From positions 1 to 48,563 of the forward strand of contig WQYX01000026.1 of the NCBI GenBank assembly GCA_009781005.1: DNA of 48,563 nucleotides. The letters are read 5' to 3'. The translations under genes were made by a program, and so were the position numbers. This DNA comes from Polyangiaceae bacterium. Its GTDB lineage: Bacteria > Myxococcota_A > Polyangia > Polyangiales > Polyangiaceae. The number at the start of each line of letters is the position of its first letter. The stretch's first letter is position 1. The notes beneath the pieces are model-generated. The model ran no database searches. It saw only the letters and a program-made list of their open reading frames with translations, and was not told the origin of the DNA. This document shows, one piece after another, positions 3,091-36,022 of the stretch.

Positions 3091-3281
3091 GAGCGTGTAG
3101 GGCACGCCTGCTGCGCGAATCGATTCGCTTCGATGGCGCCTTCGGCGCTGTCGGCCCGCTTACGGCGGGACCTCAGGTGGGCGCTGCGGTGCCTGCGCAC
3201 GTACGACAAGTCACGTTTACGCGGGCTCCTCGCGCTCCGCCCTAGCCTCGATTCGCTCGCAACGGCTGGTAAACACGCTCT
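3090..3281 (+). repeat. R1 intergenic repeat, copy a (long form with 41-bp cassette)
   Basis: It starts AGAGCGTGTAGGGCACGCC on the TAA of the upstream gene and ends GGCTGGTAAACACGCTCT on the stop codon of the convergent histidine-kinase gene, so both neighbours terminate in it. It shares the R1 core GCGGTGCCTGCGCACGTACG and CTCCTCGCGCTCCGCCCTAG. Relative to the 145-bp copies it carries extra sequence including a 41-bp double-hairpin cassette at 3135-3175, also found at 35771-35811 and 42756-42796. Confidence 0.85.
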
Positions 3282-4167
3282 AACGCATCGTGTTCGGCGG
3301 GTTCGCTGCCGGAAAGATCATGGTGACGACGAGCGTTTTGCGCGCGCGCGCCCGGAACACGCCTCCATGCAATTCGACGAGGCCACGCGCAACGAAAAGG
3401 GCGAGCCCTCCGCGTCCACCTTCGACAATGGGCTTGGGCGCGCCGCGCGGCACCGGCGCGCGAACCGCGAACACGACCTTGTCTCTCGCGCAAGCCATGC
3501 TGAGCCGAACGCGGCCGCCCTCCCCTGTTACCTTCACGGCGAAGGCGAGCACCTTGGCGAGCACCACGAGCATCTTCGCACGGTCAACGAAGACGATCGC
3601 GCCATCGTCGAGCGGACGCGCCGCCGTCACGAGCTTGCGTTCATCACGAGCGTTCGCCGCAACGACGGCGTGAGTCACGAGCGACATGGCAGCTTCGGGC
3701 TTGCGCTGCAACTCGACGTTGCCCGCGGTGATGCGACTCGCTTCGAGCAGATCTTCGACCAGGCCGCGCATGCGCCCCGTGGCGCGATCCAGCCGTGTCG
3801 TGAGATCGAGTGCCCGGTTGACGTCGACTTCGTTGCGCTCGAAGTCGTCGCGAAGGAGCCCAGCGCTCATTGCGAAGGTGTTGAGCGGATTTCGGAGATC
3901 GTGCGCGACGCCGGAAAAGAGTGACTCGCGCGCCGTTATGGCTGCATCTTCGTGCGCTCGGAGTTGCATATTCTCGAGCGCGAGGTGGTGCACGACAGCA
4001 AACAGCACGCTCGCGGATTCTTTTGCGATCTGCGTGGACGCGCAGGCGATGATCTCTTCGGCTTCGAGCGCGACACGATCAATCTCCGCGGTCGTTGTGG
4101 ATTCCTGCAAGCGAGGGCACACGTCCGCAAGCGCCTTGAGCAAGGCCTGAGGATCGAGCGATGCCAT
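3280..4167 (-). CDS. sensor histidine kinase-like protein with degenerate ATPase domain
   Basis: The start chosen is ATG at 4167, preceded by a strong Shine-Dalgarno GGGGAGG seven bases upstream; the frame also allows 4230. It gives about 295 residues. The N-terminal ~100 residues are helical and lack membrane segments, so it is a soluble sensor. An H-box FSGVAHDLRNPLNTF marks a DHp domain. The following HATPase region is altered. Where an N-box (NLxxNAxK) is expected it reads KVLAFAVKVTG, with no asparagine. The G1 box DxGxG is replaced by RAPVPRGAPKPIVEGG. A G2-like GGLALFVARGLVELHGG remains. Family knowledge says the lost residues bind Mg-ATP, so it may be a pseudokinase or phosphotransfer/phosphatase protein. 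No response regulator is adjacent. Its stop codon lies in R1. Confidence 0.85.
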   Translation of the reverse strand: MASLDPQALLKALADVCPRLQESTTTAEIDRVALEAEEIIACASTQIAKESASVLFAVVHHLALENMQLRAHEDAAITARESLFSGVAHDLRNPLNTFAMSAGLLRDDFERNEVDVNRALDLTTRLDRATGRMRGLVEDLLEASRITAGNVELQRKPEAAMSLVTHAVVAANARDERKLVTAARPLDDGAIVFVDRAKMLVVLAKVLAFAVKVTGEGGRVRLSMACARDKVVFAVRAPVPRGAPKPIVEGGRGGLALFVARGLVELHGGVFRARARKTLVVTMIFPAANPPNTMR

Positions 4168-23870: not shown

Positions 23871-24014
23871 GAGCATGTTTACCAGCCTGCTGCGCGAATC
23901 GATACGTCGGTTGGGCGCTGCGGTGCCTGCGCACGTACGAATAGTACGCTTACGCGGGCTCCTCGCGCTCCGCCCTAGCCTCGATTCGCTCGCAACGGCT
24001 GGTAAACATGCTCT
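23870..24014 (+). repeat. R1 intergenic repeat, copy c (type copy, perfect termini)
   Basis: This 145-bp element has perfect 18-bp terminal inverted repeats: AGAGCATGTTTACCAGCC (23870-23887) and its complement (23997-24014). It starts on the TAA of the TPR gene and ends one base before the ATG at 24016. The core contains GTACGAATAGTACGC and CTCCTCGCGCTCCGCCCTAG. No transposase frame is present. Confidence 0.92.
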
Positions 24015-33385: not shown

Positions 33386-33531
33386 AGAGCGTGTAGGGCA
33401 GCCGTCGCGAGCGAATCGAGGCTAGGGCGGAGCGCGAGGAGCCCGCGTAAACGTGACTTGTCGTACGTGCGCAGGCACCGCAGCGCCCAACCGACGAATC
33501 GATTCGCGCAGCAGGCTGGCGAACACGCTCT
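33386..33531 (-). repeat. R1 intergenic repeat, copy e (reverse orientation)
   Basis: This 146-bp element is the complement of copies b-d: AGAGCGTGTAGGGCAGCCGT at the left, then CTAGGGCGGAGCGCGAGGAG, GTACGTGCGCAGGCACCGC, and AGGCTGGCGAACACGCTCT at the right. It is the only R1 copy not touching an annotated stop codon; an R2 copy lies on the stop side instead. Confidence 0.88.
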
Positions 33532-33752: not shown

Positions 33753-35501
33753 ATGAAGATTCAGTGTCAGTCCTGCCAGGCCAAGTACACCATCGCGGAT
33801 GAAAAGGTCGCCGGGAAGGTGGTCAAGATCCGCTGCAAGAAGTGCGGCGAAGCGATCATGATCAATGGCCACGAAATGCGTCCATCGGATGATGTTGGCA
33901 ATATGCCTGTCTACGACGAGGCAAGCCAGAGTGACGAGCAGTGGACCGTAAACGTGGCGGATGGGGATCAGCGCACGATGACGGCGCGAGAGATCGTCGC
34001 GGAGCACCGCGCCGGTACGATCAACGACGAGACGTACTGCTGGAAAGACGACATGCCCGACTGGCTTCCGCTGCGCGAGATCGAATCGCTCTACAGCGCT
34101 CTTGGAGCGCCGTCGCACGTGTCGCTGCATGACGAGGCGCAGCCCTCCAACTCCGTCCCTCCGCCGGAGATGCCAGTGCCTGCTGCAAGTGAACCAGCGG
34201 AAAGTCCGCTGTCCGGCGTCTCGCACAGCAATGGCCTGGGTGCAGGCTTTGCCGGCTCGGCTCCAACTGAAGACACGGCGCTAATCTCCGCGGGAGCACC
34301 ACCAGCAGAGGCAGCACCCGCAGCAGCCTACCCATCCGAAGCAGAGTCAGCGGCCGGAGCCGTTGCCGTCGTGGCGGCACCGGCGGCTGCACGGCGTGGC
34401 GGCGGACGTGGACAAGGTGCAGATCTTTTCGGCAACGCAGCGCACGCGGGCGGTGAGAGCGACGTGGTCGAGGCGGCCGGCGGTGTCGACGCAGCAGCCA
34501 TGGCAGCCGCACACGCGGAAAAGCTCACGGGCCAGCGCAACGAAAGCAGCGTGCTCTTCTCGCTCTCCTCGCTCACGGAGGAAAAAAAGAAGAACGCGGC
34601 GCCCGCAAGCAGCCGCACCACGGCCACCGCGGAAGGCTCGGGCCTCATCGACATTCGCGCGCTCGGCGCAAGCATGGGCGTCGACGAGAGCAAAGCCAAG
34701 GGAGACACGAAGGCACGCGTCGACGACATCATGAACTTGAGCGGCGGTGGCGCGTTTGGCGCGCCTCTCGCGGCCCCCATGCTCACGCCTTCTCCGCTGG
34801 AGGCAGCGGACCAAGCCGCCGCAAGCGGCAAGTCCAGCAAGGGATTCGCGATCCTCGGCGCGGCCGTCATCATCGCCGCCGCCATTCTCGGCGGAGTCTT
34901 TCTCGTCACACGAAACACGACGACCGCCCCCGCAACACAAACAATGGCCCCGGCCGTCACGCCAACGAACGAACCGCCGGCAGCCACGCCCGCCGCAACG
35001 GCACCCGCGGAGAACACGCCTGCACCGCCAACCACCGGCCCGGCAACCGTACCGGCGGTCCCGGGGCCGAAGCCACCTGCTCGGCCCGGCGCCGCTGCCG
35101 CCGGGCCAAAAACTGCGGCTGCGCCCGCAGCCGAAGCGCCAAGGCCACCCAGCGGATCTCCGGATCTCGCCGGTGCCATGGCGGCCGCTGCCGGTAAGCC
35201 GGCAGATGCGCCGAAGCCCGCCGCCGTCAATACAACGGCGCCGTTCAATCGCGGCGCGGCAGCGGCCGCCCTTGGAAACGTCAACGTGCAGGCGTGCAAG
35301 AAGCCCGACGGGCCAACGGGCAGCGGGCACGTCATAGTCACCTTCAACCCGGATGGCACCGTGGGCACGGCCGTCGTCGACGGCGGCCCGTTCCCTGGCA
35401 CCGCGGTGGGCGGCTGCGTCGCCGGCAAATTCCGCAGCGCCCATGTTCCGGCATTCGCGGGCGGCCCTCAGCCGGTCGGCAAGTCCTTCTCCATCAATTG
35501 A
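33753..35501 (+). CDS. AgmX/GltJ-like protein: zinc ribbon, GYF-type and TonB-like C-terminal domains
   Basis: The 582 residues begin with an MJ0042-type zinc finger (CQSCQAKYTIADEKVAGK, KIRCKKCGEA). A GYF_2-like domain follows at ~residues 63-120 (QWTVNVADGDQRTMTAREIV, CWKDDMPDWLPLREI). A long Ala/Pro-rich disordered region is interrupted by one membrane helix at ~residue 365 (GFAILGAAVIIAAAILGGVF). The C-terminal ~80 residues (NVQACKKPDGPTGSGHVIVTF to the end) form the AgmX/PglI TonB-like domain facing the periplasm. M. xanthus GltJ (AgmX) has this order and belongs to the Glt gliding complex. No other glt gene is next to it, so it may be a stand-alone paralogue. Its TGA overlaps R1f. Confidence 0.88.
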   Translation: MKIQCQSCQAKYTIADEKVAGKVVKIRCKKCGEAIMINGHEMRPSDDVGNMPVYDEASQSDEQWTVNVADGDQRTMTAREIVAEHRAGTINDETYCWKDDMPDWLPLREIESLYSALGAPSHVSLHDEAQPSNSVPPPEMPVPAASEPAESPLSGVSHSNGLGAGFAGSAPTEDTALISAGAPPAEAAPAAAYPSEAESAAGAVAVVAAPAAARRGGGRGQGADLFGNAAHAGGESDVVEAAGGVDAAAMAAAHAEKLTGQRNESSVLFSLSSLTEEKKKNAAPASSRTTATAEGSGLIDIRALGASMGVDESKAKGDTKARVDDIMNLSGGGAFGAPLAAPMLTPSPLEAADQAAASGKSSKGFAILGAAVIIAAAILGGVFLVTRNTTTAPATQTMAPAVTPTNEPPAATPAATAPAENTPAPPTTGPATVPAVPGPKPPARPGAAAAGPKTAAAPAAEAPRPPSGSPDLAGAMAAAAGKPADAPKPAAVNTTAPFNRGAAAAALGNVNVQACKKPDGPTGSGHVIVTFNPDGTVGTAVVDGGPFPGTAVGGCVAGKFRSAHVPAFAGGPQPVGKSFSIN

Positions 35502-35536
35502 GAGCGTGGAGGGCAGCCGTCGCGAGCGAATCGAGG

Positions 35537-35705
35537 CAAGGGCCTGTCCCTGAATTCGACTCCACGTCGGCGGACTCGGCGGGTTTTGGTGGTCTTCGTC
35601 GTTGCTCGTCGTCGACGTACTTCAGTACGCCTCCTCCTCGCGCCTCGAATCCCGCGCAAAACGCGCTCTCGCCGCCTCGGTCCGGAATTCAGGGACAGGC
35701 CCTTG
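35537..35705. mobile_element. 169-bp inverted-repeat element inserted in R1f
   Basis: It is bounded by 21-bp perfect inverted repeats; the outer 18 of the core read GGGCCTGTCCCTGAATTC at 35540 and its complement ends at 35702. The inside has GTACTTCAGTACGCCTCCTC and a GTCGTCGTTGC-type run, with no frame long enough for a transposase. Comparison with the uninterrupted R1e copy shows the insertion point directly. No clear target duplication is visible. It is best described as a MITE-like, non-autonomous element. Confidence 0.85.
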
Positions 35706-35770
35706 GACGGAGCGCGAGGAGCCCGCGAAAGCGTACTTGTCGTACGTGCGCAGGCACCCGAGCGCCCACC

Positions 35771-35811
35771 TGAGGTCCCGCCGCAGGCGGCCGGGCAGCG
35801 CCGAAGGCGCC
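35771..35811. repeat. 41-bp double-hairpin cassette
   Basis: It starts TGAGGTCCCGCCGCAGGCGG and ends CAGCGCCGAAGGCGCC, forming two adjacent hairpins. The same cassette occurs at 3135-3175 (complement) inside R1a and at 42756-42796 inside R3e. It is present only in some copies of each family. Confidence 0.85.
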
Positions 35812-35858
35812 GTCAAAACCGAATCGATTTCGCGCAGCAGGCTGCCCTACACGCTCTG

Positions 35859-36022
35859 AGTAGACCCCACCGCGCCGCTCGCTGCGCTCGCCGCGCGTGC
35901 TCCCCTTGGGCTGGTGCTCGTCAGGCGCGCCCAGGGAGCCGTGGCGCTGTAGGGGCGCAGCATGCTGCGCCCCTACGAAACGTGGGCGCGCCTTCCTGCG
36001 CGCCGCCAGGGGAGCCTCCGCT
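35859..36022 (-). repeat. R3 intergenic repeat, copy d, with embedded palindrome
   Basis: It begins GAGTAGACCCCACCGCGCCG and ends CGCCAGGGGAGCCTCCGC, the complement of the R3 layout, with CTCCCCTTGGGCTGGTGCTC in common with R3b. The middle is replaced by sequence holding the perfect palindrome at 35949-35976. It follows R1f almost directly, making a repeat cluster of over 500 bp. Confidence 0.6.
35949..35976. repeat. perfect 28-bp palindrome
   Basis: GTAGGGGCGCAGCA followed immediately by its exact complement. It would form a 14-bp cruciform or a hairpin with a minimal loop. GTAGGGGC...GCCCCTAC palindromes are, from memory, a recurring type of short intergenic repeat in other environmental bacteria. 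Confidence 0.9.

Follow-up and report, generated by a model that had tools for sequence, protein, structure and literature searches.

The window analysed here, positions 1 to 48,563 of contig WQYX01000026.1 of a Polyangiaceae bacterium (assembly GCA_009781005.1), carries six copies of a repeat named R1, and one of these copies, R1f, is interrupted by a second segment with inverted ends. This arrangement raises the question of what the inner segment is, which enzyme moves it, and whether R1 occupied this place before the inner segment arrived. As detailed below, the inner segment is very probably an IS5-mobilised MITE that was inserted at a TA inside an older R1 MITE.

The nested repeat and the copies of the inner element

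The initial annotation described a 169-bp segment with perfect 21-bp inverted ends, splitting R1f after its first ~36 bp, with R1 sequence resuming beyond it. Both parts of this description were confirmed: the perfect inverted pair CAAGGGCCTGTCCCTGAATTC / GAATTCAGGGACAGGCCCTTG (35537–35557 and 35685–35705) spans 169 bp at 35537–35705, and R1 sequence is found on either side, at 35502–35537 on the left and at 35705–35856 on the right. For the 18-bp core of these ends, shuffled sequences gave a chance expectation of 0.00 matches in the window. The mobile unit, nevertheless, is not 169 bp long with 21-bp ends; since the siblings start at GGG, the outer 3 bp on each side of the pair belong to the R1 flank or the target. 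The element itself comprises 163 bp with 18-bp perfect terminal inverted repeats; it contains no gene and has no room for a transposase. The features of the locus are the following:

35499–35501, no strand: left TGA of the 3-bp target duplication (TNA type) flanking R1f; it doubles as the stop of the upstream gene
35502–35856, plus strand: R1f, an R1-family MITE with GAGCGTG...CACGCTC ends, 355 bp with the nested element
35502–35537, plus strand: left arm of R1f, 36 bp
35538–35539, no strand: AA, left target dinucleotide, where intact R1 and the sibling insertions have TA
35540–35702, plus strand: inner MITE, 163 bp
35540–35557, plus strand: left terminal inverted repeat, GGGCCTGTCCCTGAATTC
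35685–35702, minus strand: right terminal inverted repeat, the identical 18 bp inverted
35703–35704, no strand: TT, right target dinucleotide, where the siblings have TA
35705–35856, plus strand: right arm of R1f, 152 bp
35857–35859, no strand: right TGA of the R1f target duplication

A search of the genome for other copies bounded by the same ends, as suggested in the initial annotation, was carried out in the assembly of the same organism (G000, 4.77 Mb in 199 contigs). The 18-bp end was matched 35 times with up to two mismatches, versus 0 times for a reversed control. Pairing of these ends resulted in 14 elements; nine are complete close relatives of 160–172 bp (160, 163 or 172) that lie in both orientations at different sites, and the remaining ones have related ends and a different interior. 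Several contigs break within copies, as expected for repeats.

In the siblings, the initial GGG comes immediately after TA. Three of them (L001, L009 and L016) lie at the centre of R1, at the point where the window copy is located, and follow the rule GAGGC-TA-element-TA-G. L001 reads GAGGCTA-element-TAGGGCGG, L009, in which the inner element is inverted, reads GAGGCTA-element-TAAGGCGG, and L016 reads GAGGCTA-element-TAGCTAGGGCGG; the intact R1 centre for comparison is GAGGCTAGGGCGG. Outside R1, the flanks of L010 are CCTA-element-TAAC. TA is present on both sides at these four sites and at others, and one or both TAs have been lost at L003, L005 and L014. From the sibling flanks and L010 it follows that the target duplication is TA, of 2 bp, and given this rule the inner element is classed as a MITE that duplicates TA. 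A 4-bp duplication of CTAG was also considered; at CTAG sites the reading CTAG-GGCC..GGCC-CTAG fits equally well, but it is disfavoured by CCTA..TAAC at L010.

The earlier claim that the inner element is mobile is thus upheld by the recurrence of its ends and by the TA duplication at the siblings. The alternative named in the initial annotation was that the ends never recur and that the segment derives from a local duplication or inversion; this reading, or that of an assembly artefact, would accommodate the fact that the ends reach a 21-bp perfect palindrome here, but it retains virtually no probability, given that copies of the segment lie in different flanking sequence at unrelated sites and that intact R1 copies supply the empty site.

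The comparison of empty and filled sites gave a different result for the siblings, where the TA duplication is found, and for the window copy, which reads GAGGCAA-element-TTGGACGG, with AA as the left and TT as the right target dinucleotide and without direct duplication at the site. The AA/TT of this copy is probably a mutated TA/TA. The mirror-fashion change from TA/TA to AA/TT at 35538–35539 and 35703–35704 preserves the palindrome; one could speculate that a single mutation arose and was then copied across the hairpin.

Elements with these ends were also observed in other genomes. An element in a genome from another family of the order (G044) has common ends and size and hardly any interior in common. 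A 271-bp element with TA flanks and identical ends is located at 3842–4115 of L070, in a Polyangiaceae MAG (JAICQQ010000023.1), and shows a second similar end near position 142. Several CTAG insertions (L027, L102, L012 and L120) are bordered by a third repeat, whose sequence is similar to ATGAATGATCCGGGCTAG.

The R1 family and the order of insertion

R1 is a MITE with 3-bp TNA duplications. It is very abundant, with ~165 intact centres in the genome (roughly one per 29 kb), and occurs in a short form of 144 bp and a long form of 190 bp. The flanks of the window copies are TAA/TAA, TGA/TGA, TAA/TGA, TGA/TGA, TTA/TTA and, for R1f, TGA/TGA; hence TNA matches on both sides in five of the six, the exception being the copy at 23871–24013 (TAA/TGA). 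The target of R1f was the TGA stop of a 582-codon frame (33753–35501), and this stop is duplicated. Two intact copies are relevant to the empty site:

3091–3280, minus strand: intact 190-bp R1, TAA/TAA duplication, the matching empty site
33387–33530, plus strand: intact short-form R1, 144 bp, TTA/TTA duplication

The initial annotation had taken the copy at 33386 for the empty-site comparison. This copy is indeed an intact R1, but it is the short form, without a segment further right. The true match is the copy at 3091–3280: without its 163-bp insert and one copy of the 2-bp target, R1f measures 190 bp, exactly the length of that copy, and the alignment of both shows 168 identical columns out of 192.

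The nesting shows that this R1 copy predates the inner insertion, and to this extent the previous statement that R1 was there first is correct. It does not necessarily apply to the locus, because a ready-made composite of R1 and the inner element could have moved as a unit; the likely order at the gene end at 35501 is, nonetheless, that R1 came first. In the alternative order the composite would have been formed elsewhere and moved to 35499 as a unit by the R1 transposase. The 355 bp of R1f have kept the R1 end on each side and are enclosed by a clean TGA/TGA duplication, so that the composite would be a possible substrate for such a movement; however, a second copy of the composite was not seen in the material searched, and L001, L009 and L016 sit in other R1 subtypes, with the inner element of L009 in the opposite orientation. 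These differences in R1 subtype and orientation at the filled sites favour separate insertions, and a transfer of the composite is considered rather unlikely.

The window has 14 CTAG sites, 4 of which are R1 centres, and, by a rough count, about a quarter of the inner-element insertions fall within R1. A specific targeting of R1 was considered and discarded, given that CTAG preference alone would account for this rough count.

In the model that we propose, an IS5-family (IS427-group-like) transposase would recognise the GGGCCTGTCCCTGAATTC ends in trans, and the inner MITE would be inserted at TA, often in CTAG, with duplication of the TA. In this case it landed in the central CTAG of the longer-established MITE R1, whose movement would depend on another IS5-type transposase, with a 3-bp target duplication of the TNA type.

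Candidate partner transposases and related systems

The initial annotation also suggested searching for a full-length element with a transposase. Such an element was found in a related genome of the same family (G021), in the form of a complete 825-bp IS bounded by TA followed by GGGCCTGTCCCTAAATTC and its inverse, ends that are common to the MITE. It contains two overlapping transposase frames, orfA (PF13340) and orfB (PF01609), both of which match the IS5 family model NF033580. IS5-type elements with TA followed by GGNSGTGTCCCT-like ends are present in two genomes of the same genus (G004 and G011) and in G042. In the organism under study, contigs C70 and C141 stop inside an IS5-type transposase gene located behind TA and GGGCGTGTCCCT; according to a profile search, TA and GGGCGTGTCCCTAGATAG are followed in both contigs by the beginning of an NF033580-type frame, and these N-terminal matches are weak (E-value of 0.007 each), although frame and position fit. 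This partner IS is visible only as its first ~180 bp at the two contig ends, and its ends diverge from those of the MITE after the first ~12 bases. Three loci (L018, L023 and L026) have one end of each type, linking the ends of the partner IS with those of the MITE. A tblastn search of this genome with orfB of G021 gave no match at E <= 0.001, as would be the case if the assembly contains no more of the IS than its 5' part, and no likeness of the MITE interior to the partner IS was seen by eye beyond the ends. Taken together, the shared ends suggest that an IS5-type partner transposase moves the inner MITE; this transposase resembles those of the IS427 group of the IS5 family, a placement that derives from size, duplication and two-frame layout and not from a tree.

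Two other types of transposase were considered. IS630/Tc1-mariner elements likewise duplicate TA, and the inner element could be a MITE of that kind; nevertheless, PF13358 (DDE_3) had no match in the genome, and it is IS5-family elements that bear the inner-element ends, making this origin extremely improbable. The same very low probability is assigned to a REPIN/RAYT system, in which paired repetitive extragenic palindromes are moved by a Y1 (HUH) transposase. Many-copy short palindromic repeats and one Y1 transposase gene do occur in this genome, but no GGGCCTGTCCC or R1-type ends lie alongside this gene (contig C187; no match in L031), the TA duplication and the 18-bp terminal inverted repeats are in line with a DDE element, and the inner-element ends are those of IS5-family elements.

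Regarding R1, the genome also contains pieces of IS5-type transposase genes, which terminate in the R1-like sequences GAGCGTGTTCGACAGCAAT (L033, L035 and L040) and GAGCATGTTTACCAGGAA (L037 and L039). Every transposase gene with R1 ends that was seen is cut by a contig end or by internal loss.

Known systems offer close parallels. The IS427-group elements of Paracoccus are 832–865 bp long, with terminal repeats of ~13–21 bp and 2-bp duplications nearly throughout, and some of them have two overlapping ORFs and a frameshift motif (PMC3281130). The IS of G021 is similar in its 825 bp, its TA duplication and its two overlapping frames, whereas the inner element differs from this group in having no gene. 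MITEPsy1 of Pseudomonas syringae is short and non-coding, has 18-nt terminal repeats and prefers CTAG or YTAA; its transposition has been seen, and the IS5-family element ISPsy2 is given as its parent (PMC3189936). The inner element shares with it the short, non-coding structure, the 18-nt repeats and the frequent use of CTAG as a target; however, MITEPsy1 has 100 nt and a 4-nt duplication versus 163 bp and 2 bp (TA), and the two sequences have no recognisable relation. For the IS1031 group of the IS5 family, a three-nucleotide target and a single-ORF layout have been described as features (PMC2516522). R1 resembles this group in its TNA duplications, and the same genome contains IS5-type transposase genes that carry R1-like ends; its tentative placement near the IS1031 group is based on target length and gene ends and not on a tree.

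Stop codons and the significance of the nesting

Another aspect of these insertions is their position relative to genes. Five TA-flanked MITE insertions end long frames (L011, L026, L029, L030 and L108, with 191, 498, 402, 337 and 408 codons, respectively), and at these five stops the target TA together with the first G of the element forms TAG. G is the first base of the element, so that a TAA or TAG stop whose TA serves as the target is restored as TAG and the gene stays intact. The TNA target of R1 also fits TGA and TAA stops. That stop codons are safe landing sites for these MITEs is, however, a tentative and somewhat doubtful proposal. The survival of harmless insertions is a simpler reading than a preference of the transposase, and selection against gene breakage may suffice.

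The locus is a small and clear example of one MITE nested in another, from two non-autonomous families that differ in their duplications (TA and TNA); both families have matching IS5-type transposase genes in one genome, and empty and filled sites can be compared. From it, the ends and the target rule can be defined for a MITE family that would have passed as an intergenic repeat without annotation; it also illustrates how genes can be spared when an element inserts at a stop codon. A MITE within a MITE, with two IS5-type partners, is ordinary biology that is unusually well documented here; the kind is known and its members are new.
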